This document shows positions 3,531-33,361 of a stretch of 64,000 bases of DNA, piece after piece (within the stretch, counting starts at the first letter, position 1; the number at the start of each line of letters is the position of its first letter). The stretch covers positions 1 through 64,000 of the forward strand of contig NZ_CP049332.1 in NCBI RefSeq assembly GCF_011064285.1, read 5' to 3'. The notes below the pieces were generated by a model. It had not been told where the DNA came from, did no database searches, and worked only from the letters and a program-made list of their open reading frames with translations. Made by a program: the position numbers and the translations under genes. This DNA is from Vibrio ziniensis (GTDB lineage Bacteria > Pseudomonadota > Gammaproteobacteria > Enterobacterales > Vibrionaceae).

Positions 3531-4571
3531 ATGAATAGGATTGTAAGTGTTGACACTTTTCGTGTGCTAGCCATAATTTCTGTAATTTCGATACATACGT
3601 CGCCATTTCGAGAATGTCTAGATACTTCGTTTTGTGGGTATTTGGATGTCCTATTTAATCAAGGTGCGCGTTTCGCTGTACCATTTTTCTTCACTATCTC
3701 CGGATATTTCTTTGCTGAAAAGGCTAAACATGATAGAGCAACTATTCCAACCATGATAAGTTATATCAAGAAGTTGATCTTTATTTGGATGTTTTTTTCG
3801 GCGATTTATATTTTTCCTTACAACCTGCTTTCCATTCTTGATCATGGTATACTTGGTCCTGCGAAAGTAGTCTATTGGAACTTATTAAGAATAGCAGAAA
3901 ATCCAGTTTTATTTCTTTTTCAAGGGAGCCAAGCTCACTTATGGTTTTTAGTTAGCCTTTCAATATCAATACTTATAGCGTCATTGTTTATACATTTTTT
4001 CAAACCAAAAAACATTATATATTTAGTATTAATTTCTCTATTTTTATATATTTTTGGAGTACTATCTAAATCATATTCTGAGACACCAATTGGAATTAAA
4101 TTCAACTTTAACACAAGGAATGGTCCATTTTTTAGCACGATTTTCTTTGTTATAGGTTATGTACTTTCAGGTTATAAAATAACAAATAGGCATATTGTAC
4201 GTGGATTCATTATCATGCTTTTAGGTTATGTTATATCTTTTGGAGAAATATATTATCTTAGTTCTATTTATGGAATTCCACCGATAGAACATGACTATGT
4301 TTTTGGCACGTTATTTATTGGTTTGGGGACGTCTCTAATAGCTTTATCAAATCACTCTATACTTAATATAAAAATTTTATCTAAATTTGGGAAATATACA
4401 CTTGGCATATATGGGATTCATTTTGTTTTTGTTAGTTTATTAAGTGATATAGACAAACAAACCTCTAACCCAGCATGGGAAATCGGATACATATTCTTGG
4501 TTTTCCTTCTATCTACTGCCACAACAATAAAATTATCTAATTATAAGAAACTTAATAAATTTTTTGTATGA
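3531..4571 (+). CDS. Acyltransferase family 3 membrane protein
   Basis: A 346-residue membrane protein with about ten hydrophobic helices. The opening VDTFRVLAIISVISIH keeps the D/R and the I-H of acyltransferase family 3, and AHLWFLVSL is a typical mid-protein loop with the family W-F. A ribosome-binding site (AAGG, seven bases before ATG) supports the start. It ends the plus-strand group at the left; the next gene is convergent. It most likely acylates a sugar of the exported polysaccharide. Codon use is AT-rich like its neighbours. It is clearly different in sequence from the other two acyltransferases here. Confidence 0.83.
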   Translation: MNRIVSVDTFRVLAIISVISIHTSPFRECLDTSFCGYLDVLFNQGARFAVPFFFTISGYFFAEKAKHDRATIPTMISYIKKLIFIWMFFSAIYIFPYNLLSILDHGILGPAKVVYWNLLRIAENPVLFLFQGSQAHLWFLVSLSISILIASLFIHFFKPKNIIYLVLISLFLYIFGVLSKSYSETPIGIKFNFNTRNGPFFSTIFFVIGYVLSGYKITNRHIVRGFIIMLLGYVISFGEIYYLSSIYGIPPIEHDYVFGTLFIGLGTSLIALSNHSILNIKILSKFGKYTLGIYGIHFVFVSLLSDIDKQTSNPAWEIGYIFLVFLLSTATTIKLSNYKKLNKFFV

Positions 4572-4724
4572 TAAATGTAAATTTCATTCTCCGTAAGCCT
4601 TCACCAGTACGTACAAATACCTCACATACAAAGCAATTTAACAGTGTGCTTCTAGTGTTCAATGCAAGGTACAGGTGTTTTTGCTTAAAAATATCCATGC
4701 ACCGCTGGCGAACTGCCTGCTCTT

Positions 4725-5735
4725 TTAACGTCCGCCAAGTGCGAATGCGTGAAGTTTAGGGCTAAATTTTTTAAAGTTATGATTAACAATTATACTTAAT
4801 ATCACAGTGATAATAGGAGCAGTTAACCAATAAATAAAATATGGACCATTGGGAAATAATTTTTGGTAAATTAGCCAGATCATTAAGATTAGCGGACCAT
4901 GAGCCAAAAATGTGAAAAAACTGTGGTGGGTAAATTTGCGAACAGTATTACCTATGTTTGTACCCATTATCAATGACATTGATGGCCATACAAGTATGGG
5001 GGAAATTAGCCGTAATGGCTCCCTGTTATCGATCTTATACGCTATCATCCCGGCTGCTATAGACAGAAAAATAGCCAGCAATAATGGTGCGTATTTATCC
5101 AGAGCAGTTAGATCCCACTCTTTGTGTGCAGCTAGCGCACCAAGATAGAAGCTAACTAACATAGAGTTTCTACTGATTAGACCTCCATCTAAGTTAAAGT
5201 AATAGATGACCAGCACAACAATGAAGCCACAATATGGGATAGTTTTCAGCAATGGCCATAGCAGTGGAGATAAAATAGAAAGAACAAATAGATCACGTAG
5301 AAAGCCTGTAGGATAGTTTATTGCGGAGCCGTATAAACTGGTTACGGCGCCGAGCCAGTTTATTAACTCAAAAGGAAATAGTTGCACTGAAAAGTTATAA
5401 TCAAAAAGTGTATGTTTTTGAATGAAATATACAGCTATCGCCAAAGGGAGATTCCATAATATCAAGGGTATTAATATCGAATTAACTTTATTTTTAATTA
5501 ATTTTTGAGGGGATAAATGGAGAGATGATGTGAAGATGATATAACCTGATATCGCAGTTAAAACTGGAATAGTGGCCCTAAAAACTCCAAAAGTAAAAAA
5601 TGCCTTAATATAATCGAATTCAGACATAGTACCAACGTCTTTTAATGGCTGATAAGGCGGTAAGTGTAAAACTATGATACCTATTATCATTAGGAATCTT
5701 GTTACCCAGATTCTGTCACTAATTTCTTTGTCCAT
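4725..5735 (-). CDS. Acyltransferase family 3 membrane protein
   Basis: About 336 residues, multi-spanning. The N-terminus DRIWVTRFLMIIGIIVLHLPPY shows the family arginine and the helix ending in histidine. The preferred start is the ATG at 5735, which has GGAG six bases upstream; upstream in-frame starts would add 4 to 17 residues without a better site. It is the last gene of the long minus-strand operon that begins at 17.5 kb, separated from the flippase by about 96 bases. GC content is slightly higher than in the flippase before it. Probable role: O-acylation of the polysaccharide. Confidence 0.8.
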   Translation of the reverse strand: MDKEISDRIWVTRFLMIIGIIVLHLPPYQPLKDVGTMSEFDYIKAFFTFGVFRATIPVLTAISGYIIFTSSLHLSPQKLIKNKVNSILIPLILWNLPLAIAVYFIQKHTLFDYNFSVQLFPFELINWLGAVTSLYGSAINYPTGFLRDLFVLSILSPLLWPLLKTIPYCGFIVVLVIYYFNLDGGLISRNSMLVSFYLGALAAHKEWDLTALDKYAPLLLAIFLSIAAGMIAYKIDNREPLRLISPILVWPSMSLIMGTNIGNTVRKFTHHSFFTFLAHGPLILMIWLIYQKLFPNGPYFIYWLTAPIITVILSIIVNHNFKKFSPKLHAFALGGR

Positions 5736-21403: not shown

Positions 21404-21808
21404 ATGCATCGACTAAAAATCAGTTTACTCAGTCTCTACACACTACTGATCGCTTATGTGACATTATCCAGTGACTCTTCATCTGACTCTGTAGTCCCTG
21501 ATCTCAACACTTTTGGCATTTCAAATCTGGATAAATTGGCTCATACCGGAGCCTACGCTCTATTTTACATTCTGGCAGTAACGGGATTTGGAATGAAAAG
21601 ACTTAAGAGTATTAGAGCAATACTCCTAATTTATGGGATGATTCTTGAGATTCTTCAAACTTGGGTACCACAGAGAGAACCGTCATTAGAAGACTTTTTA
21701 GCCAATTTACTTGGGGTAATACTAGGTTCCTTGGTCATGTTTGTGCTAGACAAACTACCAAAAAACCGTTTTACGCTCGCATTACTTCCGAACTCAGATA
21801 AGAGTTAA
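21404..21808 (+). CDS. VanZ-like small membrane protein
   Basis: A 134-residue protein with about four transmembrane helices. DKLAHTGAYALFYIL and the later VPQREPSLEDFLANLLGVILG are the usual VanZ-family motifs (H in helix two; R-x-x-S-x-x-D-x-x-A-N loop). VanZ-like proteins are common in exosortase loci, sometimes fused to exosortases, but their biochemical role is unclear. It follows the protease by 33 bases and closes the prsT group; the next gene is convergent. Confidence 0.85.
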   Translation: MHRLKISLLSLYTLLIAYVTLSSDSSSDSVVPDLNTFGISNLDKLAHTGAYALFYILAVTGFGMKRLKSIRAILLIYGMILEILQTWVPQREPSLEDFLANLLGVILGSLVMFVLDKLPKNRFTLALLPNSDKS

Positions 21809-21879
21809 CGACACCATTATAAGGTTCCCATAATCTTGCAAACGATTAGATTATAATTGAGAAAAAAGTATAATTTGAA

Positions 21880-22818
21880 TTAAGAAGAAGGCTCTTGTAA
21901 TAGGTGTCTTTGGCTAGCAAATTTTCTTGCCGCCAATATACGCTTAATCCGCTGTAGTGGGCCACGATTTCCCCAACGTAATTTTCCTTTTCGGTAAAGA
22001 CATCGAAAGGGATCAAACTGCATGTAGTAAGGTGCAGCCATAGGTTGGCGTTTGTTGAGCAATATAATTACTACTTCCGAAGTTAGTAATCCTGTAGCAA
22101 TATTACAAGCACAAGCTAGAGAAGGACCTGCATGGTCAGAAGAATCTACCTTGTTCGTATCCATATATTTCCAGTGTGTACCCCATGGTGCAACGCCTAC
22201 AGTAAAAGCAATAAGCTGATCAAATAAATCCATGCCATCATGAATATCAAAATATTCTTCAAAACTCATTCCATCTGGCATAAACACATTTAAAGTACCT
22301 GAAAAACCAAGTGGAGCTGCGAAAACAACAGGCTTACCATGTTTTCTAGCTGTGCGATAAAGTAATAAACGAGCTTGCATTGAAAAAAAATCTATTGCAT
22401 CAACAATGACATCCGACTGACTTACAAATTCATCTACATTCTCTGGTTGAATGCCGTTAGTAAACATCGTGATATCCACATCAGGATGAATATCCTTTGC
22501 CATCGCCGACATGACTTCAACTTTAGGCTTATCAATCGTAGACGAAGTTGCTCCTATCTGGCGGTTAATATTTTTAATGCTAAACTCATCAAAGTCTGCG
22601 ATATTGAATGCCCCAATACCCACACGCACTAAATCTATTAGTTCTCGTCCACCTAATCCACCACACCCTGCGACCGCAACACGTGACCTGCGCAGTTTGT
22701 TCTGTTCTTCCTCTGTAACTAACCCAATGTTGCGTGTCACGGCCAATCTATAATATTCTTCGCGGTCCATGGTTACATACCTTTTTGGTTGAAAGTTAAC
22801 ATCTTCGATTAAACTCAT
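21880..22818 (-). CDS. ThiF/MoeB-like E1 adenylyltransferase
   Basis: A 312-residue member of the E1-like superfamily. The nucleotide-binding loop GCGGLGG is at residues 51-57, followed by DFDEFSIKNINRQ (family D-x-D and R for ATP), and VDAIDFFSMQARLLL with the metal aspartate. These enzymes adenylate the C-terminus of a ubiquitin-like protein or a small carboxylate. The two CxxC zinc pairs of MoeB are not visible. An internal ATG at 22770 could be the true start. It follows the acyltransferase by 19 bases, forming a two-gene operon. No ubiquitin-like partner or sulfur-carrier gene is nearby, so the substrate may be a small molecule made by the acyltransferase; this is inference. Confidence 0.87.
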   Translation of the reverse strand: MSLIEDVNFQPKRYVTMDREEYYRLAVTRNIGLVTEEEQNKLRRSRVAVAGCGGLGGRELIDLVRVGIGAFNIADFDEFSIKNINRQIGATSSTIDKPKVEVMSAMAKDIHPDVDITMFTNGIQPENVDEFVSQSDVIVDAIDFFSMQARLLLYRTARKHGKPVVFAAPLGFSGTLNVFMPDGMSFEEYFDIHDGMDLFDQLIAFTVGVAPWGTHWKYMDTNKVDSSDHAGPSLACACNIATGLLTSEVVIILLNKRQPMAAPYYMQFDPFRCLYRKGKLRWGNRGPLQRIKRILAARKFASQRHLLQEPSS

Positions 22819-22837
22819 TCGTTAATTGAATTTTTGT

Positions 22838-23749
22838 CTAGAATGGAAAACACTTCCCAACCCGGTCATATTCAGCCCTTAGAGTACAAAGATCATCTTC
22901 AGGTACATTGACGAGAAAATCAGAGCGTTCTTTGAGAAAATAATGTAACAATTCCTCAGATAGAGGCTCCCCTTCCCCTTTATTTCGATTAAAGCCTTCT
23001 GTGAAGAAAAAACGATGTAGATCCGCATCAAATTCTTTCCCTGAATAGAAATTTTCTGCTTTTTTTTGCGCTTCTTCAATATTCAATCGGTGCCCTTGAA
23101 CTTTTAATTTGTATGCTGCTGAATAAGGAAGCAGTTCTCCCATTGGTTCAAAAAGACATACCTTACGATAAAATTTAATATGCCTTTCAGTGACGGAACA
23201 ACATAGATCCGTGACCTCCTTCATCGCAGCAAACTGGAACAAGAGCTTAAACATATGTAAAAAAACTTTGTATTTTGTGTACTTAGGGTTTACTGAAAAA
23301 GCAATGACTTCAGCCATTCTACGACCTTCAGCCCGTAGCTTAGCGACTTCACTAGCGCAAAATTCTTCCATTGGCAGTCCCATAGGACTATCCAGAACTA
23401 AAGTAACTGTACCTACAATCTGCCCCTTACCGTCAAATTTTTCCGGAGTTTGATCAGACAGAGCCTTGTGATAACAAGCAACGAAAACACGAGTATCCGG
23501 TAGCATATGGTACTTAGTGAAACGGATCCCCTCGTGATCATCACGTTGCAGTCCTGTTTCCACATAATTTTTCCAAACGAGTGAAAAAGCTTGTTCTAGA
23601 GCTTCTTTTCCATCAGCTATTTTATAGGTTACCGCACATATTTCTGGAGCACCCTTATTCTCATCTTTAGATAAACGCACTTCTTTTCTTCTTTCCACTG
23701 GTACTGTTTTTCCATTAAGTTTTTGTGAACTGCTCTTCTCTTGCTCCAT
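22838..23749 (-). CDS. PEP-CTERM/exosortase-associated N-acyltransferase (FeeM-like)
   Basis: About 303 residues related to N-acyl amino acid synthases and autoinducer synthases (GNAT fold). The core runs from QAFSLVWKNYVETGL through DTRVFVACYH, IVGTVTLVLDSP and AEVIAFSVNPKY to FYRKVCLFEPMGE. This matches the family described next to PEP-CTERM/exosortase systems. The ATG at 23749 has AGGAG upstream; 18 further residues would be added by an earlier start that lacks one. The N-terminal 50 residues are charged and probably disordered. It is divergent from the PEP-CTERM protein gene, sharing a 535-base intergenic region, and is the first gene of the pair with thiF. Likely product: an N-acylated amino acid or related lipid; not proven. 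Confidence 0.83.
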   Translation of the reverse strand: MEQEKSSSQKLNGKTVPVERRKEVRLSKDENKGAPEICAVTYKIADGKEALEQAFSLVWKNYVETGLQRDDHEGIRFTKYHMLPDTRVFVACYHKALSDQTPEKFDGKGQIVGTVTLVLDSPMGLPMEEFCASEVAKLRAEGRRMAEVIAFSVNPKYTKYKVFLHMFKLLFQFAAMKEVTDLCCSVTERHIKFYRKVCLFEPMGELLPYSAAYKLKVQGHRLNIEEAQKKAENFYSGKEFDADLHRFFFTEGFNRNKGEGEPLSEELLHYFLKERSDFLVNVPEDDLCTLRAEYDRVGKCFPF

Positions 23750-23990
23750 GAGAAATCTCCTGAATAGAAAAATTGCCCTTATACTAAGGGGGAAGCGCCT
23801 CAATATATTGATTTATAATTGTTACTATTGATAAAAATAATCCTAAATATTTACTATAGCAAAATAGACATAATGCAATTTTTATAATCCGAACACTTTT
23901 TAATAAAAAACAATAATTAATAACTGAATATTACTCAAGAGTTTTCTATAGACGGCGTACATAAGTCTACAATTTAATACCTATTGAGCA

Positions 23991-24284: not shown

Positions 24285-25133
24285 ATGAAATTTTTAAGCA
24301 AGGTCACCAAATTATTCGTACTCTGTTTCTCGTTGCTTTTGACTGGGCAAGCTTATGCTGGTTATATGACCCTTCAGGATCAGATATGGGGCATAGATCC
24401 TGATGGTGATGGTGATACATCTAACGCAGTCATGCTTCTAAATATGGATTATGACAGCTTCACTTATGTATCATTTAGCGATGCCACACATTTTACTGAT
24501 TACGGCTTTTTGTATTCAACAGATGATAGTGCGCTAAAAGGTATGTACGCTAAAGCAACACTAACAGGTGAGGCATCAGGTTCTAATGCGTCGTTTGACG
24601 CAGGCTCTACAATGAATTGGTATGACGCATCTGATAATCTAATAATGACATTAACGCTCATTTACGGGGATAGCACTAACGTCGCATTGGATCCTGTAGG
24701 AGGCACTATTAGTGGCAGTTTGCGGTTTCAATTTGAGATTACGTACGTAGCAGAAGACTATTTTTATATCTGGGACGGTGTAGACTGGATAGATTTAGCC
24801 GATCTTATCGGAGAAGATAGCCCATACTATATGGAAGCTGGTTCACAGATACAACGCGCAACAAACAATCTCCTAACTGTTGAGCAAAACAGCAGTGACT
24901 TGGCTGGTACAGGACTTAATATTCTGGATGAACTTGACAGTATCACTGGATTGCCAGCAGGTAGCGCACAATCAGCTATCAATACACCTTCTTTTGCCGG
25001 TTTTGTAACATTTAACGATGGTAATGTGTTTGTGGGTGTTGTACCTGAACCTGGAATGCTTAGCCTTATGGGTCTTGCTTTCCTAGGTTTCGCTGGTTTT
25101 CAGTCCCGTCGTAAAAGCCAACAAAATAGCTAA
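24285..25133 (+). CDS. PEP-CTERM sorting-domain surface protein
   Basis: A 282-residue exported protein. It has a signal peptide (KLFVLCFSLLLTGQAYA, cleavage at about residue 25), a middle rich in Asp, Ser, Thr and Tyr with no cysteine in the mature part, and a C-terminal sorting signal: VPEPG, a hydrophobic helix, then the basic tail RRKSQQ. This tripartite end is what exosortases recognise and cleave. The middle resembles small PEP-CTERM proteins linked to floc or biofilm formation, but I cannot assign it to a named family with confidence. It stands alone behind a sigma-54 promoter and before a strong terminator, consistent with high, regulated expression. Confidence 0.92.
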   Translation: MKFLSKVTKLFVLCFSLLLTGQAYAGYMTLQDQIWGIDPDGDGDTSNAVMLLNMDYDSFTYVSFSDATHFTDYGFLYSTDDSALKGMYAKATLTGEASGSNASFDAGSTMNWYDASDNLIMTLTLIYGDSTNVALDPVGGTISGSLRFQFEITYVAEDYFYIWDGVDWIDLADLIGEDSPYYMEAGSQIQRATNNLLTVEQNSSDLAGTGLNILDELDSITGLPAGSAQSAINTPSFAGFVTFNDGNVFVGVVPEPGMLSLMGLAFLGFAGFQSRRKSQQNS

Positions 25134-25289: not shown

Positions 25290-27332
25290 TTGAATACATG
25301 GTTTGGTCTTATCGGCTATACACTAACCGCCGTGGGATTTTTTGTTCTATTTTTGTTGCTGCTAACCACTCGTACTCAGCGTCTTCAGCGTACTCTCCTC
25401 ATTATTTCGACTATCACGAGTAGTCTATGGGCAGGAGCCTCTGCCGGAGTGATTTATTATGCCCTTCCTCTGCACTGGTTACTGATTACTGAATCCATTC
25501 GAAACTGTAGTTGGCTTTTACTATTATTCAGTACACTGGCTGACTGCCAATCTATAAAAACCATTATATGGGTTAATCAAAAGCCACGTTGGGTTATTTT
25601 TGCGCTTCTGTGCGCTTCGCTAGCTGAGCTGATTAGTATCATTCTGCCTTGGCTTACCCTCGGTCGTATAATGATGTTACACCTTATTCAGTCAGCTGTT
25701 GGACTATGGTTAGTAGAACAACTGTACCGCCGAACAGAGAAACATGGGCGTTGGACAGTGAAACCATTATGTCTTGGTCTAGGTCTGATGTTTGCCTACG
25801 ATTTCGCCCTTTACGCTAATGGCGTATTAACCAATACCCTTGACCCAGCCTTCTGGTTTGGTCGTGGTTGGGTAATGATATTAACTCAACCACTGATTTT
25901 AATTTCATCACGCCGGGTGACCAACTGGGCAACCCGTGTCTATGTTTCCCGAGATGTGGTCTATCATAGTACTTTATTGGTTGTAGCTGGCATTTACCTG
26001 CTAATCATGGCCGCCACCGGATACTATATTCGTTATATCGGTGGCGATTGGGGCAGCATGGCAAGAAACATTTTTTTTGCGCTAAGCGGCCTACTTTTCG
26101 CTAGTCTCTTTATTTCAGATTCACTCCGGCGACAGCTGAAAGTGTTTATCACCAAGCATTTTTATGCCAACAAATATGAGTATCGCCAAGAATGGATGCG
26201 TTTTGCATCTGTATTGGAAAACAAACAAGAGTCACCTTATAAGGTTGCACTGCAAGCGATAATACAACCCTTTGATTGTGAAAAAGGAATGTTGGTGGCG
26301 CTGGAAGCAGACAAAATAAAACATTATGCCTATTATAATCTTGATGAGGGTTATCCTGACCCGGAATCAGTACTGAAAACTCTGGTTGAAGCCTCTATTC
26401 GCCACCAATGGATTATTGATATCGAAGAGTTGATTAACGGCAGTGATGAAACTCCGTTTATCGTCGAACCAGAACAAATAAAAAGAATAACCAGTTTCAG
26501 CTTTGTTGTTCCGATAACCAATGATAATGGATTTCAATGCGCCTGCTTAATTTCAAACCCGCATTCAACTCAATCATTGAACTGGGAAGACCGAGATCTT
26601 ATGTGGGCGATCAGTACTCAGTTATCGGTCTATCTTAACCTATATCAGACCAATAAAATTATTTCAGAAAACCAACAATTTGACACATTCAACCGTATGT
26701 CTGCATTTTTGGCTCATGACCTAAAAAATGTTTTGGCTCAACTGCAATTACTGGCAAAAAATGGAAAACAGCACCGAGATAATCCTGAGTTTATCGACGA
26801 TGCATTTGAAACTATAGACTCAGCAATAACACGTTTGACAAAAGTGGTAGAACATCTAAGAAGGAAAAATCAGCAAGAGAGCATCACTGCCAACGAAACT
26901 TTCTCAATAGACTCTGTCATTCAATCCGTGTGCAATAGTAGAAGGGCAAACAAGCCTGTACCAGAATATGTTTCACATTGTCTAGAACCTATCTTCATTA
27001 CGGCAGATAAAGAGCGTTTTAGTAATGTTCTTTCTCATATTATCCAAAATGCACAGGAGGCAACTAGCGCAGAAGGATCTGTATTCGTTGAAGCAACTAA
27101 AGATGAGAAATATTGCACTATTAAGATTACCGATAATGGTATAGGAATGAGTGCCGAATTTATCGAAGAACGACTATTTAAGCCTTTTGATACAACTAAA
27201 GGGAATTCTGGGATGGGTATTGGGGCGTACGACGCAAAAAGGTTAATTGAACAGTTACAGGGTTATATTGATGTGCAATCTGAACCCGGTAAAGGATCAT
27301 GCTTTACCATGCGCATCCCCATTCCAAGTTAG
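25290..27332 (+). CDS. prsK: PEP-CTERM system sensor histidine kinase PrsK
   Basis: A 680-residue membrane kinase. The first about 290 residues form seven to nine hydrophobic helices, followed by a GAF-like sensor region (about 300-440), a histidine box AHDLKNVLAQLQ with H476, and a C-terminal ATPase domain with NAQEA, DNGIGM and GNSGMGIGAY. Length and layout match PrsK, partner of PrsR in exosortase systems. The start is a TTG at 25290 with AAGGATAGAGA upstream. prsR follows after 84 bases. The signal sensed by the membrane part is unknown. Confidence 0.92.
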   Translation: MNTWFGLIGYTLTAVGFFVLFLLLLTTRTQRLQRTLLIISTITSSLWAGASAGVIYYALPLHWLLITESIRNCSWLLLLFSTLADCQSIKTIIWVNQKPRWVIFALLCASLAELISIILPWLTLGRIMMLHLIQSAVGLWLVEQLYRRTEKHGRWTVKPLCLGLGLMFAYDFALYANGVLTNTLDPAFWFGRGWVMILTQPLILISSRRVTNWATRVYVSRDVVYHSTLLVVAGIYLLIMAATGYYIRYIGGDWGSMARNIFFALSGLLFASLFISDSLRRQLKVFITKHFYANKYEYRQEWMRFASVLENKQESPYKVALQAIIQPFDCEKGMLVALEADKIKHYAYYNLDEGYPDPESVLKTLVEASIRHQWIIDIEELINGSDETPFIVEPEQIKRITSFSFVVPITNDNGFQCACLISNPHSTQSLNWEDRDLMWAISTQLSVYLNLYQTNKIISENQQFDTFNRMSAFLAHDLKNVLAQLQLLAKNGKQHRDNPEFIDDAFETIDSAITRLTKVVEHLRRKNQQESITANETFSIDSVIQSVCNSRRANKPVPEYVSHCLEPIFITADKERFSNVLSHIIQNAQEATSAEGSVFVEATKDEKYCTIKITDNGIGMSAEFIEERLFKPFDTTKGNSGMGIGAYDAKRLIEQLQGYIDVQSEPGKGSCFTMRIPIPS

Positions 27333-27416
27333 ACATAGCTTATTTTGCATCATGTGGCTTAGAGCATAAGCCAATATTAGATTAACCAATAACTCTAAAT
27401 AGAATAAGGTAAACGA

Positions 27417-28766
27417 GTGAAGGAAACACTACTAGTCATCGAAGATGACATTGGCATCCAAAAGCAGTTGAAATGGACTTTTTCAGACTATAACGTAGTT
27501 CAAGCCTATGACTGTAATTCAGCCATTAATGCATTGCGTCGTCATGAACCTAAAGTAATTACATTAGATCTTGGCTTACCGCCAGACCCAGACAACGCAA
27601 GTGAGGGTCTTGCTACATTAAAAGAGATCCTCACTCTTATGCCAAGGTCCAAAGTTATCGTCATTACCGGAAATGACGACAAAGATATTGCATTAAAAGC
27701 AATAGAAATGGGTGCCCATGATTTCTACTATAAACCCATTGACGACGATATCCTTACAGTTATTGTCAACCGTGCCTTCCTGATTGCAAACCTTGAACTC
27801 GAAAATGAGCAACTCAAACAATTTTCTTTAAATGGTAATGGGTTTATCGGAAACAGCCCTAAGGTTCAACATGTTTGCCGTTTAGTAGAACGTATTGCTC
27901 CTACTAATATCAGTGCGTTACTGTTAGGAGAAAGCGGCACAGGGAAAGAAGTCATTGCTCACTCAATTCACAATTTGAGTATGAGAAAAACTCAGCCCTT
28001 TGTTGCTATCAACTGTGCTTCTATTCCTGAAACCCTTCTAGAAAGCGAATTATTTGGCTACGAAAAAGGAGCCTTTACCGGAGCACAAAAAACAACAAAA
28101 GGTAAAGTAGAAAGCGCAGAAGGTGGAACGCTTTTTCTAGATGAAATCGGCGATATGCCTTTATCCCTTCAGGCCAAGATGCTACGTTTTTTACAAGAAA
28201 AAGTAGTTACGCGTGTTGGTGGTCGAGAAGATATCCCTGTCGATATCCGTATTATATGTGCAACACATCAAAATTTAGAGCATATGGTCAGTGATAAATT
28301 ATTTCGTGAAGATTTATTTTATCGCATAAGTGAGATTACCATACAAATTCCACCACTACGTGAGCGTGATGGTGATATTATATTAATTGCACGTGCTATT
28401 TTGCAGAATCAATGCCAACTTATTGGTAAACAAATTAATGGATTTAATGATGAAGCCGTTGAAGCCCTAATTAACTATCCGTGGCCAGGTAACGTACGTG
28501 AACTGCAAAATAAAGTAAAAGCGGCGAGTATTATGTCCGATGGAAAACAAATAACTGCGCAGGATCTCGCGTTAAAATTGGATAACAATGCGATTACTCT
28601 GGATCTAAACCTAAAAAAAGTCAGAGAAGATGCCGAGAAATGGGCAATTAGCCAAGCAATTGCCATTATGGATGGAAATATGTCAAATACGGCTAACTTG
28701 TTAGGAATTACCAGACCCACGCTATATTCATTAATGGATAAGTATGCGTTAAAGAAAAATACATGA
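27417..28766 (+). CDS. prsR: PEP-CTERM system sigma-54 response regulator PrsR
   Basis: A 449-residue NtrC-type activator. The receiver domain keeps the acidic pair (E9 D10 D11), phospho-site D51 in TLDLGLPP, T84 and K106. The AAA+ domain has GESGTGKE at 171-178 and the sigma-54-contacting GAFTGA at 218-223. A C-terminal Fis-type helix-turn-helix includes NTANLLGITRPTLYSLMDKY. All functional residues are intact, so it should be phosphorylated by PrsK and open sigma-54 promoters such as that at 24223. The start is a GTG with AAGGT upstream. Confidence 0.93.
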   Translation: MKETLLVIEDDIGIQKQLKWTFSDYNVVQAYDCNSAINALRRHEPKVITLDLGLPPDPDNASEGLATLKEILTLMPRSKVIVITGNDDKDIALKAIEMGAHDFYYKPIDDDILTVIVNRAFLIANLELENEQLKQFSLNGNGFIGNSPKVQHVCRLVERIAPTNISALLLGESGTGKEVIAHSIHNLSMRKTQPFVAINCASIPETLLESELFGYEKGAFTGAQKTTKGKVESAEGGTLFLDEIGDMPLSLQAKMLRFLQEKVVTRVGGREDIPVDIRIICATHQNLEHMVSDKLFREDLFYRISEITIQIPPLRERDGDIILIARAILQNQCQLIGKQINGFNDEAVEALINYPWPGNVRELQNKVKAASIMSDGKQITAQDLALKLDNNAITLDLNLKKVREDAEKWAISQAIAIMDGNMSNTANLLGITRPTLYSLMDKYALKKNT

Positions 28767-28823: not shown

Positions 28824-29660
28824 ATGGATACTCAACCATCTCAAAGTAAAAAAACGGATGATAAATTGCATGAGTTATCGGCTCTCAAAGAAAATGAAAA
28901 CTCTCAAAGTTCTCGTTTTTCCAGACGTCGATTTATCCAATCAGGTATCGCCGCCTCTCCTTTATTAATGTCAGTTAAAAGTCCTGTCGCATGGGCCGCA
29001 GATAATTTAACGAATAGTAGTGCTGCTGTTTCAGGCAACACATCCACTTCGTCTGAGCTTGCTACCATTGCAGCAATAAACCCTACTACGTGGGGAGAAA
29101 TTATAAACGGCAATGATTCATTTCTTAAAAATGCGTTAACTGCTTGTGGCATTAAATCCAATACACACTTTTTAGACATGTTCGGTGGTGAGCTTTGTAG
29201 CTTGAACTCGTGTAACGAAAGTGGTTGGAGTTATAAAATATTAACCAATACTATTAGAAAAAGTGATAATCCATTAGCCTGCGAAGCATTACAAAATGCA
29301 TCTGCATGCAAGCTAGTATTGAGAGTTCAAAAATATAATAACTCTAGTCCTGTTACTGGTGATGTGTATGGCTCATCGCAATACAGCATTCAAAGCAGTA
29401 ATAATAAACACTGTTTTGATGTCTCTATCTATGAGCCAGAACTTCATAAAAATCTGATCTGTGGATATTTGAACGGTCTATTTTCGTCTGACTTCATTGA
29501 GTACCCGTTTGATCAGGTATATATTTTTAATACATTTAAGTCTGTAATTTCATCATTGGCGGATAGAATTGCAAAAGATGGTCACGAAAAGAACTTTGAT
29601 CCTTCAATTTACTCCCTTCTTCCATCATTACGATATAATCTGAGTCAGACATGGAAGTAA
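28824..29660 (+). CDS. Tat-exported protein of unknown function
   Basis: A 278-residue protein with a twin-arginine signal: SRRRFIQSGIAASPLL at about residues 33-48, followed by a cleavage region near VAWA-AD. A polar, probably disordered segment (TNSSAAVSGNTSTSS) precedes the folded part, which contains seven cysteines (in TACGI, ELCSL, NSCNE, LACEA, SACKL, KHCFD, LICGY). No enzyme motif is recognised. Its position just before a PqqD-like/HprK-like module and 57 bases after prsR suggests a link with that module, possibly as its exported target. Tat use suggests folding or cofactor loading before export. This is inference. Confidence 0.75.
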   Translation: MDTQPSQSKKTDDKLHELSALKENENSQSSRFSRRRFIQSGIAASPLLMSVKSPVAWAADNLTNSSAAVSGNTSTSSELATIAAINPTTWGEIINGNDSFLKNALTACGIKSNTHFLDMFGGELCSLNSCNESGWSYKILTNTIRKSDNPLACEALQNASACKLVLRVQKYNNSSPVTGDVYGSSQYSIQSSNNKHCFDVSIYEPELHKNLICGYLNGLFSSDFIEYPFDQVYIFNTFKSVISSLADRIAKDGHEKNFDPSIYSLLPSLRYNLSQTWK

Positions 29661-29695
29661 GATAGTTAGAATTGAATTAATGAGGATAAGATATA

Positions 29696-29983
29696 TTGTT
29701 AGATGAGCAGACAAATATCTCACTACATCCTTCTTTCTCCGTTAAAGACTTTACGTTTTTAAGTAAGGATAAAGGTGTTGTTTATTGCCCAGTTAATGGT
29801 GAAACCCTGCTTTGTGAAACTTCAGTTATTCATTACTTAACTCTGCTTGAATCAAAGCCGGAATGCTCTTATCGTCAACTTATGAAAATGTACCCTACTC
29901 AAGCTGAGAATATGATTCAGCAGTTGGCTAACTTGTACGTAATTGAGATTCAAGGGAAAAACATACAGAATGACAATAATTAA
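29696..29983 (+). CDS. PqqD-like peptide-chaperone family protein (HPr-rel-A system)
   Basis: A 95-residue protein resembling the PqqD-type peptide-binding fold: LHPSFSVKDFTFLSKDKGVVYCPVNGETLL forms the beta-hairpin part and SVIHYLTLLESKPECSYRQLM the helices (only short parts quoted as motifs: FTFLSKDKGV and VIHYLTLLES). Start is a TTG at 29696 with GAGG upstream. It overlaps the HprK-like gene by 14 bases. PqqD proteins deliver peptides to modifying enzymes; here the partner is a kinase-like protein rather than a radical SAM enzyme. This gene order matches the set known as the HPr-rel-A system. Confidence 0.75.
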   Translation: MLDEQTNISLHPSFSVKDFTFLSKDKGVVYCPVNGETLLCETSVIHYLTLLESKPECSYRQLMKMYPTQAENMIQQLANLYVIEIQGKNIQNDNN

Positions 29984-30872
29984 GGAGTATCATGTTGCTG
30001 TTGGCCCCTTTATTTTTTCTGTTCATTCAGATATCTCTGCACTCCATTACTATCTGGAAAAGCATTACAAGCACTGCCTGTTAGATATTACAGAAGAACA
30101 TTTTGTCGATTATTATATCGAAGTCATGCAAGGCCGTTGGTATCGTCGTTTATACAAACCACAGGCAATATTCAAATTTAACTATTACGCACCATTTAAG
30201 CCTTTACCGCTGAATCAAGCTCATGCTTTGTTGGAATGGGGGATGAACTGGGTAATTGCTAGTCAAGCACACCAATATTTTATATTGCATGCCGCAACAG
30301 TAGCGAAAGGTGACCAAGGCGTTATCATTTCAGCACCTTCAGGTTCAGGGAAAAGTACACTATGTGCTTACCTCGTTTCACAAGGATGGACTCTTTTATC
30401 TGATGAACTAGCTTTGATTGACCCAGACAGCATGCAATTATATGGTCTAGAACGTCCGATTAGTTTGAAAAATCAATCTATTGAGTTACTTAAAGACTAT
30501 TTCAGCCACGAAAAATTTAGCAAGGTTATAAAAGATACACAAAAAGGAAACATCAGTTTACTGGAACCTGTTCCAAATAATGTAATAGGCTCTAATACTC
30601 CAATAAAACCTTCGCATATCGTTTTTATCAAGTATAACCCAAACGAAAACTGTTACTCAGAGAGTGTTGAGCCGGCTCTTGCTCTAACCGAAATTATTAG
30701 AAACAGCTTTAACTTCAACGTGCTCGATAAAGCTGGTTTTGCCTGTGCCAGAAAGTTAGTCGCTCTCACGCCTGTGTCCTATATCGAATATAATAATTTT
30801 CAGTTATGCGAACGAGAAATTCTTGAAGTGATAAATAGCGCTAAAGAGGACAAGCTTGCCTATGCTAACTGA
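29970..30872 (+). CDS. HprK-related kinase A
   Basis: About 300 residues related to the C-terminal kinase domain of HPr kinase/phosphorylase. The P-loop is APSGSGKSTL at about residues 122-131, followed by WTLLSDELALID, which matches the HprK strand after the loop with an acidic catalytic pair. The ATG at 29970 begins TIIKEYHVAVG; nine more residues are open upstream. Upstream and downstream genes overlap it (14 and 17 bases). No HPr gene is in the window, so the substrate is not the classical one; the PqqD-like protein or its cargo is the natural candidate. Confidence 0.85.
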   Translation: MTIIKEYHVAVGPFIFSVHSDISALHYYLEKHYKHCLLDITEEHFVDYYIEVMQGRWYRRLYKPQAIFKFNYYAPFKPLPLNQAHALLEWGMNWVIASQAHQYFILHAATVAKGDQGVIISAPSGSGKSTLCAYLVSQGWTLLSDELALIDPDSMQLYGLERPISLKNQSIELLKDYFSHEKFSKVIKDTQKGNISLLEPVPNNVIGSNTPIKPSHIVFIKYNPNENCYSESVEPALALTEIIRNSFNFNVLDKAGFACARKLVALTPVSYIEYNNFQLCEREILEVINSAKEDKLAYAN

Positions 30873-31950
30873 TATCCTCACAAATCCACATTCTTTCTCA
30901 GATCTAACTGCACAAGAGCAGTCCAAGCTGATTTCAGAAGCAAGATATTTCAATATGCTAGCTCAGCTAAAGCCCATTTTTGAAAACTGTGGGCTATGGT
31001 CAACTCTCCCCTCAAAAATAAGACAAAATATCAGTTCTGCGTATACGGTTTATAACCATCAGCAGAGTCGATTGCAGTATGAAAAAAGGCACTTCCAGCA
31101 ACTATTCAGTTCACTGAAGATAGAATGGATTTATTTAAAAGGGGCAGCATACCACCTTGCCCAATATTCAGAGTTTAACGGAAGACTAATGAGTGACATT
31201 GACATTCTGGTTACAGAGAGTTCATTGCCGAAAGTTGAAAAAGCGCTACATGCACAAGGATGGTTACAGACCCACATCAATGATTATGATCAGAAGTTTT
31301 ATAGACAATGGTCTCAAGAGATACCCCCTATGCGTCACCTAAAAAGACGAACGGAGCTTGACCTACACTTCAATATTCTTCCTAAAACACTAAAAGAATC
31401 TCCTAGTCCTGACTTATTACTAAGACAAACGCAGGAAATAGTAAACAACGAGGTAAGTTCGGGAAAGATACTTAATCCAGCAGCAATGGTTATACACTGT
31501 GCTATACATCTATTTTACGAAAGTGATTTTAGTAAAGGGGTGCGGGATTTGTATGACCTACATATTCTCCTGACAAAGTTTTCAGCACAGCCCGAGTTCT
31601 GGGAGAAAATAATGTTGCTACAAACTCAAATAGGTAATGGTCGTTCTGTGTACTATGCACTTCGTTACTGCCAGCTCACTTTTCAACTTTCAATTCCACA
31701 AAAGGTAGAAGTCTTTTATCAGCAATATAAGCCTAATTATCTCAAAACGTTAATCAATGATTTTGCCTTTAAACGTGCTCTTATTTCGTCATTCCCAGAC
31801 AATCGATTATCAGGACACCATATAGCGGTATGGATACTATATATACGTGGACATCTAAAACGAATGCCATTGAAATTATTGATACCGCACTTAATTAAAA
31901 AATCAACACAACGATGGATGGAAAACGACCAAAAAGAGGTATTATTATAG
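30856..31950 (+). CDS. Nucleotidyltransferase-fold protein (NTP_transf_5 type)
   Basis: A 364-residue protein with a nucleotidyltransferase signature: WIYLKGAAYHLA then GRLMSDIDILV, where SDIDIL carries the metal-binding D-x-D. RTELDLHFNIL later gives a third acidic residue. This matches the NTP_transf_5 family found with HprK-related kinases and PqqD-like proteins. It overlaps the kinase gene by 17 bases, so the three act together. The molecule being nucleotidylated is unknown. Confidence 0.82.
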   Translation: MPMLTDILTNPHSFSDLTAQEQSKLISEARYFNMLAQLKPIFENCGLWSTLPSKIRQNISSAYTVYNHQQSRLQYEKRHFQQLFSSLKIEWIYLKGAAYHLAQYSEFNGRLMSDIDILVTESSLPKVEKALHAQGWLQTHINDYDQKFYRQWSQEIPPMRHLKRRTELDLHFNILPKTLKESPSPDLLLRQTQEIVNNEVSSGKILNPAAMVIHCAIHLFYESDFSKGVRDLYDLHILLTKFSAQPEFWEKIMLLQTQIGNGRSVYYALRYCQLTFQLSIPQKVEVFYQQYKPNYLKTLINDFAFKRALISSFPDNRLSGHHIAVWILYIRGHLKRMPLKLLIPHLIKKSTQRWMENDQKEVLL

Positions 31951-32044: not shown

Positions 32045-33361
32045 TTGAATTTTCTTAAAAAAAACATTCGTCTTCTTATAAAGTTAGCGATTCCAATTGT
32101 TGTAGTCTATTTCATTTTTTGTGCTGTTTCTAAACAAGCAACGGTCCCTGACCAAAATGCATCTCCAGAACAAGTCAAAAGAGCTGTTGAGTACTATGCG
32201 AGCATATCGGCACGCGTATTCTCTCCGCAAGAAAATATTAACCTAAAACTAACCCAACAGAACATTGATGATGTTTTAACTGTTGCATCTCATATGACCC
32301 CCCGTACGAATGTAAGTGGTAGATTCGCCAATTCTATTGGGTTGTTAAGTATGAGCTTCGACATAGGGAATAGTTGGTTCACTGGTTATATTAATATTAA
32401 TTGCTTTCTCATTTCGGGTAGCGGAGATGGAAGCATTGATTACTGCCTTATCGGGGATGTCTCAGTACCGGGCACCCTAATCAATACATTAATAAATATC
32501 TCAATCAATCTTTTCTTTTCCGATCAAGCTTCAAGCACCATTAAAGAATTAATCAACAACATACAAATAAATGACCAACAAGTTATATTGACTGCAACTA
32601 AAAATTCAGAGTTCAAAACTGATGTTACAATGGGTTTGAAAACAGCAGCCTCCATTGCTAAAAACTTTAAACCTACCAATACACACTTCCCAGAACCAGA
32701 CGTTATTAACGAATATCTGCTACATATTTTAGAAACTAACTGGCCAGCAGGTTCAAAGTCCGTTTCTCTAAGTATTGTTATCGAACAAGCATTTAGACAT
32801 GCTCAAGTTCGTAGCCAATACAATGATCCTAGAGCGGAAAATGAAGCAGCACTTTGGTCAATTGCAATTGCTTTTGGTAACCGTCGTTTTGCAGAGATAA
32901 TTAATGTCAATACGCCCGAAGTACAAACCACATTATCTAAATATCCCCGCCTTATCACCACGTTAAGCCAAAGAGGCGACTTACCTCTTCACTTTTTATA
33001 TTCGGCAGTTATGGAAATATTAGGAAATAGCCATCTGAGTACAAACGTTGGGGAACTAAAAGAGTTGCATGACGCTAACCCAGGAGGGTCAGGTTTTGAC
33101 TTCACGGATTTGGCGGCAGATAAAGCCGGAGCTGCCTTTTCACTTTTTCTAACCAGTGATAAAAACAACGCAATAGGAGGGCAAAACTTGCTATCGAAAA
33201 TGACTAAAGAGAATCTATTTTTCCCTGATATCAACGAATTACCAGCCCCAATAAAAGATAAAGAATTTGATACAGTTCTTGGTTCTACTCAAAGTGATAG
33301 TTATAAGGAAATTAATGCTATTATTGACAAAAAAATAAGTGAGCTCCCTTTATACCGATGA
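32045..33361 (+). CDS. Membrane-anchored protein of unknown function
   Basis: A 438-residue protein with one N-terminal hydrophobic helix (LLIKLAIPIVVVYFIFCAV) and a large remainder likely in the periplasm. The C-terminal half contains a region resembling a loose helical repeat, including DLPLHFLYSAVMEIL, GSGFDFTDLAADKAG and SLFLTSDKNN. I do not recognise the family. The start is a TTG at 32045 with AGGGA upstream. It follows the nucleotidyltransferase gene by 94 bases on the same strand and is the last gene of the PEP-CTERM/exopolysaccharide side. A repeat element follows about 100 bases downstream. An assembly or envelope role fits position only. Confidence 0.75.
   Translation: MNFLKKNIRLLIKLAIPIVVVYFIFCAVSKQATVPDQNASPEQVKRAVEYYASISARVFSPQENINLKLTQQNIDDVLTVASHMTPRTNVSGRFANSIGLLSMSFDIGNSWFTGYININCFLISGSGDGSIDYCLIGDVSVPGTLINTLINISINLFFSDQASSTIKELINNIQINDQQVILTATKNSEFKTDVTMGLKTAASIAKNFKPTNTHFPEPDVINEYLLHILETNWPAGSKSVSLSIVIEQAFRHAQVRSQYNDPRAENEAALWSIAIAFGNRRFAEIINVNTPEVQTTLSKYPRLITTLSQRGDLPLHFLYSAVMEILGNSHLSTNVGELKELHDANPGGSGFDFTDLAADKAGAAFSLFLTSDKNNAIGGQNLLSKMTKENLFFPDINELPAPIKDKEFDTVLGSTQSDSYKEINAIIDKKISELPLYR

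Follow-up and report, generated by a model that had tools for sequence, protein, structure and literature searches.

A Tat-signal protein encoded beside the HprK-related kinase A cassette of Vibrio ziniensis as its likely substrate

Introduction

HPr-rel-A is a cassette of a PqqD-like protein, an HprK-related kinase and a nucleotidyltransferase. It has curated models (TIGR04352 for the kinase, TIGR04353 for PqqD_rel_X), and no paper naming its substrate was found in the literature searched. What does the cassette act on? We addressed this question in a 64,000-nucleotide stretch of Vibrio ziniensis DNA (NZ_CP049332.1, positions 1 to 64,000; hereafter the window), in which such a cassette stands behind a gene for a protein with a twin-arginine translocation (Tat) signal. 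Our analysis indicated that this protein, here called the companion, is close to certainly a fourth component of HPr-rel-A and is likely the cassette's substrate.

The four module genes were confirmed as real. They are all on the plus strand, directly after prsR (27417-28766). The companion gene (28824..29660) encodes 278 aa with seven Cys residues and a twin-arginine (RR) signal of the Tat type (N-terminal SRFSRRRFIQ...). After a 35-base gap comes the gene for a 95-aa protein (29696..29983, TTG start), a putative peptide-binding protein resembling PqqD and the RRE (recognition element of ribosomally synthesized and post-translationally modified peptides, RiPPs). The kinase gene (29970..30872) and the nucleotidyltransferase gene (30862..31950) follow; their listed starts are TTG 29943 and TTG 30856, and ATG 29970 and ATG 30862 are likelier. 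Counted from the ATG codons, the overlaps among the last three genes are 14 and 11 bases. The coordinates thus confirm the close-set, partly overlapping arrangement given in a preliminary description of this DNA.

Results and discussion

The companion occurs with the kinase

We searched a sample of 398 genomes from Pseudomonadota (that of the window among them), 60 relatives and 227 genomes of the window's genus. TIGR04352 was matched over its cut-off in 61 of the 398 sample genomes, again counting that of the window, and in two of the 60 relatives besides the window. Sixty loci were fetched, 58 from the sample and two from the relatives; the window and the contig-end fragments in G227 and G242 were excluded. 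A companion with an RR signal accompanied the kinase in all 60. It was linked in 54 loci and located elsewhere in the genome in six (L038, L047, L062, L083, L084 and L090). In 53 loci, an RR-signal open reading frame (ORF) directly precedes the cassette in the same orientation; 45 of these were recognized by profile and the other 8 from the motif and by eye. In L081 the companion adjoins the cassette but is inverted.

Companions were aligned as three types: A1, the window's type (15 sequences, the window's and 14 homologues), A2 (30) and A3 (13). The profile made from the 30 A2 companions matched 50 of the 398 genomes, and 49 of these carry the kinase (Fisher 4.5e-50). The A2 rows were drawn from the same loci, so their own matches arise by construction; the absence from kinase-negative genomes does not, and the profile was absent from 336 of 337 such genomes (at most nine first-look candidates scored per genome). 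The single match without a kinase, in G278, is a Tat protein that we read as a lytic transglycosylase. Eleven of the 12 kinase genomes without an A2 match, the window's among them, have other companion types at the locus; in the twelfth, G242, the contig ends inside the kinase. In G227 an A2 match was found on the contig carrying the kinase fragment.

In the window's genus, the kinase was over its cut-off in 7 of 227 genomes, and the A1 profile matched the same seven. Some A1 rows may derive from these genomes, which would not account for the 220 genomes without a match. In the other six kinase genomes of the genus, the companion is at the kinase locus in five (split over two frames in G451) and unlinked from the kinase in G502.

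The window's companion matched no Pfam or NCBIfam family (E <= 0.1), and its mature domain had no PDB fold match at E <= 0.001. The Tat gene is therefore a constant partner of the module rather than a rare one, and its product does not belong to a well-known enzyme family. With a companion beside or away from the kinase in 60/60 loci and no known family to claim it, the earlier proposal of the Tat protein as a candidate substrate is well supported by genomics. One genome (G238, 8% contamination; L127 and L087) has two companions, one linked and one unlinked. Possibly, one module there has several substrates.

The signal region is the best-conserved part of the companion

The RR pair was invariant in A1 (15/15), A2 (30/30) and A3 (13/13), in agreement with the clear twin-arginine signal first noticed in the window. 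In A1, mean pairwise identity was 75% over residues 30-57, 44% over residues 58-78 and 34% over residues 79-278. In A2, it was 53% in the signal, fell to 24% beyond it and reached 51% across the final eight columns. Conservation is highest in the signal region, as expected of a leader bound by a peptide-binding protein. Tat signals as such require little besides the RR motif and hydrophobicity. Since the companion signal is conserved beyond these needs, recognition by a second reader would explain it naturally. The proposed RRE-binding leader of the window's companion (SRFSRRR...SPVAW, residues 30-57, 28911..28994 on the plus strand) was delimited by A1 conservation and contains invariant columns.

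A Ser/Thr-rich segment that includes SGNTS follows (residues 58-78, 28995..29057, plus strand). It is of low confidence in the structure model and is our candidate phospho-acceptor region. By a loose test, the post-signal stretch had at least one Ser in 59/59 companions. In A2, the column three residues past the signal ALA is Ser in 26/30, a Cys column then follows in 29/30, and 30/30 sequences have the Ser of a [ST]C[WFY]xS[FLI]-like motif at the C-terminus. By pattern, the post-signal Ser/Cys arrangement was found in 55/59 companions and the C-terminal motif in 38/59. The window's companion has neither, but it is Ser-rich after the signal. The 59 companions span 82-287 aa and contain 2 to 9 Cys residues. 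"Cysteine-rich", as the first gene product had been called, thus suits the window's protein with its seven Cys and not the family. Two recurring features were also seen: an SGNxS or CSxSGxxS stretch past the signal in A1 and A3 companions (L104-L106, L108, L109), and an SPGYWKN-like motif in gamma-type companions.

The 95-aa protein is predicted to have an RRE/PqqD fold

The 95-aa protein matched no NCBIfam or Pfam family (E <= 0.1). It falls in the same profile family as small ORFs located 5' of other HPr-rel-A kinases, and this family was present in 50 of 67 loci, the window included. TIGR04353 was matched by 11 of 16 aligned members of the family; judged by its sequence, the window's protein appears too divergent for that model. 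The predicted structure (predicted local distance difference test score, pLDDT, 84) aligned with PqqD and lasso RREs and contained the RRE/PqqD fold, a sheet plus three helices as in PqqD and lasso B1. The PqqD-like fold described earlier is thus supported by the model and the profile family, not by a family match. In L123 (G319, approximately 4557-5312), an unlinked companion is followed by an ORF that looks PqqD-like by eye, and the kinase locus of the same genome (L047) is without one, suggesting that companion and PqqD-like protein form a pair.

TorD and DmsD are Tat proofreading chaperones. The PqqD-like protein might be the companion's proofreading chaperone, with the kinase and nucleotidyltransferase modifying another target, e.g. 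an exopolysaccharide sugar or lipid. The pairing in L123 away from the kinase, the conserved companion signal and the exopolysaccharide genes around the window's module all agree with this explanation. However, it does not account for a companion that is present wherever the kinase is, even when unlinked, and HprK-like kinases with an RRE and a nucleotidyltransferase (NTP-transferase) are reported to act on peptides (PMC9266682, PMC13381572). We consider the chaperone explanation unlikely, although it is the strongest of the alternatives.

The kinase and the nucleotidyltransferase retain their conserved residues

The HPr-kinase-like protein of the preliminary description was identified as TIGR04352 (HprK_rel_A; 280.3 bits versus a cut-off of 200, NCBIfam). 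Its His107, Lys128, Asp145 and Glu146 (numbered from ATG 29970) were conserved in 67/67 kinases. PMC9266682 names His-Lys-Asp-Asp as the lasso-type kinase motif. We placed this motif in the alignment by our own reading; only one invariant Asp was found among the 67 kinases, and Glu146 would, on that reading, stand for the second Asp.

The last gene product was assigned to PF14907 (140 bits versus a cut-off of 31.2, Pfam). Its LKG, DxD and third D were invariant in 10/10 aligned sequences, and the assignment as a D-x-D nucleotidyltransferase was upheld. Of the 67 loci, 56 have a transferase gene close to the kinase (L090 being a doubtful case); some of the other 11 have too little sequence downstream. 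For 8 of the 56, the kinase and transferase starts are over 2 kb apart and another gene intervenes.

ORFs resembling asparagine synthase (N-terminal MCG) were seen by eye downstream of the module in L045, L069, L072 and L083. In the window, a 438-aa ORF lies 3' of the module (32045-33361); it had no family over cut-off, and a scan of the 66 other loci gave no relatives.

The companion follows the kinase rather than XrtA

The window's module is in an exopolysaccharide neighbourhood. Upstream are prsK and prsR (25290..28766, plus strand), encoding regulators of the XrtA/PEP-CTERM system; PrsK scored 633 bits (cut-off 300) and PrsR 688 bits (502.6). Polysaccharide flippases, a glycosyltransferase, a PEP-CTERM protein and PrsT are also encoded in the window, and XrtA is on the same contig (C2:1431770-1432540). 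XrtA was over its cut-off in 35 of the 398 genomes, 25 of them with the kinase (Fisher 2e-15). Conversely, 36 of the 61 kinase genomes are without an over-cut-off XrtA, and seven of these have a weaker exosortase match. Only 14 of the 50 A2 genomes have XrtA over the cut-off, indicating that the companion follows the kinase and not XrtA.

These data bear on a second alternative, in which the companion would be a matrix protein of an ordinary kind, co-regulated and exported by Tat, that the module leaves untouched and to which it is linked only by a shared exopolysaccharide function. The diversity of companions (82-287 aa) and the exopolysaccharide/PEP-CTERM surroundings in the window are compatible with it. 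Such a protein would not be expected to track the kinase (49 of 50 A2 genomes) instead of XrtA, to have no A2 match in the 10 XrtA genomes without the kinase, or to be best conserved in its signal region. This alternative is very unlikely.

A gene upstream of prsK (24285-25133) encodes a PEP-CTERM protein weakly like the flocculation protein PepA, and adjoining the PEP-CTERM gene (21404-23803) are genes for VanZ-like, ThiF-like (PRK08223) and FeeM-like N-acyl amino acid synthase proteins.

The mature companion of the window is predicted to be folded and matches no known family

Residues 79-278 form a folded domain in the structure model of the window's companion; 18 of 20 ten-residue blocks of residues 81-278 had a mean pLDDT of at least 71. 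An NCBIfam scan of 44 of the 59 companions gave no row for the window's protein, two marginal single-member rows for A2 and one for A3, none representing a known companion. A Pfam scan of the window's and A2 companions gave none for the window's and three marginal single-member rows for A2. In the A1 mature domain, His208 is invariant and a Leu-Asn pair is nearly invariant. The A1, A2 and A3 types share no evident mature domain. The fold and the conserved residues of A1 might speak for an enzyme or regulator of the module, such as a periplasmic phosphatase or anchor, rather than a substrate, but the lack of an enzyme family or PDB fold match and of a common mature domain makes this highly improbable.

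A proposed mechanism

We think it probable that the four genes form one substrate-plus-maturation unit, in which the Tat signal doubles as a leader and the companion undergoes Ser phosphorylation, capping, Tat export and action in the exopolysaccharide matrix. This proposal arises because the module has the same three enzymes, precursor architecture and kind of neighbourhood as the linear polyphosphorylated peptides (LPPs) discussed below, with a Tat-type signal as leader. Gene content, catalytic residues, the RRE-like fold of the model, the near-perfect co-occurrence of kinase and companion and the signal conservation are observed; from them we infer binding, phosphorylation, capping, export and the matrix role. 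The reaction chemistry is a well-grounded guess by analogy.

In this scheme, the PqqD/RRE-like protein would bind the companion through its RR signal region while both are in the cytoplasm. The kinase would then phosphorylate a companion Ser, most likely in the short Ser-rich post-signal stretch, or alternatively the conserved Ser near the C-terminus in companion families having one. The PF14907 enzyme would put a sugar or nucleotide on the phosphate; by analogy, the phosphate may at this point be glycosylated instead of nucleotidylated. The folded, modified companion would exit via the Tat pathway and act in the matrix of exopolysaccharide that the XrtA/PrsK-PrsR programme produces. More tentatively, HPr-rel-A may mature whole proteins in a RiPP-like manner, with the RRE reading the Tat signal as leader; a sugar-capped phosphate would then make the product a phospho-glycoprotein, which would join the XrtA exopolysaccharide or prime it. 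We know of no other case of one leader read by both a modification system and the Tat pathway.

A companion with essentially every kinase makes the cassette reaction testable with one substrate, one binding protein, one kinase and one transferase. If the proposal holds, modification in the cytoplasm before export would suggest why the substrate uses Tat. The chemistry of lasso and LPP peptides would also extend to whole exported proteins of Pseudomonadota.

Comparison with known systems

No publication on the HPr-rel-A cassette or its Tat companion was found in a literature search that left most subscription journals outside its coverage. It likewise returned none linking an HprK-related kinase with exosortase or twin-arginine, none on HprK with PqqD and exopolysaccharide, and none on PF14907. 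Among the matches listed, the RiPP/PqqD literature gave no twin-arginine translocation, and only PMC13381572 combined HprK with a recognition element or RiPP. HPr, kinase, Tat and TIGR04353 are all absent from the main texts of RRE-Finder and of a 2025 RRE paper, as are twin-arginine, exosortase and proteobacteria from that of PMC13381572. The suggestion of an undescribed system therefore holds for the Tat companion within the literature searched, and not for the HprK/RRE/NTP-transferase chemistry, which has described relatives in Bacillota.

The module shares with HPr-rel-A (TIGR04352, TIGR04353) a kinase over the cut-off, a PqqD-like gene before it and a transferase after it. The earlier assignment of the last three genes to this set is borne out by the kinase score and the PF14907 gene, and incompletely by the PqqD-like protein, which has no TIGR04353 match. 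The module adds a Tat-signal companion outside NCBIfam coverage. Its neighbourhood is that of the XrtA/PEP-CTERM system with PrsK, PrsR and PrsT, as described in PMC1569441, whose main text does not contain HPr. The module differs in that its companion carries an RR signal and gave no PEP-CTERM match.

The closest relatives are the HprK/RRE/NTP-transferase sets found with Bacillota LPPs and with paeninodin lasso peptides; their kinases phosphorylate one precursor Ser. According to PMC9266682, a lasso precursor is phosphorylated by PadeK at its C-terminal Ser ahead of maturation. Adding one or two hexoses to the phospho-Ser requires PsmN, which either does this directly or works as a nucleotidyltransferase with a host enzyme acting after it. 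The kinase and transferase chemistry of these paeninodin/pseudomycoidin systems (PadeK, ThcoK, PsmK, PsmN) on a precursor Ser serves as a model for the module. Compared with the lasso kinases, the module kinase has, by our own reading, Asp-Glu instead of Asp-Asp, and its proposed substrate is a protein with a Tat-type signal rather than a lasso precursor. No lasso cyclase C or B2 peptidase was matched within 12 kb (NCBIfam and Pfam scans of window ORFs).

LPPs (LppA/K/B/S/D/N), found mainly in Bacillota, are described in PMC13381572. Their clusters have an HprK-like kinase, an RRE and an NTP-transferase and occur in capsular polysaccharide loci. The precursors are 35-200 aa with a conserved N-terminus and a variable remainder. 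LppK phosphorylates Ser3 of the core, lppN deletion caused no detectable change there, and a role in biofilm formation is the authors' speculation. LPP clusters also have a SipW-like peptidase and an MsbA-like pump, whereas neither a SipW-like signal peptidase nor an MsbA-like/ABC exporter was matched within 12 kb of the module in the same scans (for the exporter, ORFs of at least 120 aa beyond overlapping frames). The LPP leader motif YxxPxVLxHQxIxFETxxS was not found in A1, A2 or A3 companions, which have the RR signal in its place. Common to both are the HprK-like kinase, the discrete RRE (here by model and profile only) and the NTP-transferase, and the A1 and A2 identities give the companion an LPP-like architecture of a conserved N-terminal region and a variable remainder. 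Our best reading is that the module is the Pseudomonadota counterpart of the Bacillota LPP and lasso kinase sets. If true, LPP in Bacillota and the Tat type in Pseudomonadota would be two halves of one pattern that ties HprK-type peptide phosphorylation to polysaccharide loci. The recurring link of this chemistry to exopolysaccharide loci would be strengthened, hinting at a role in the slime matrix.
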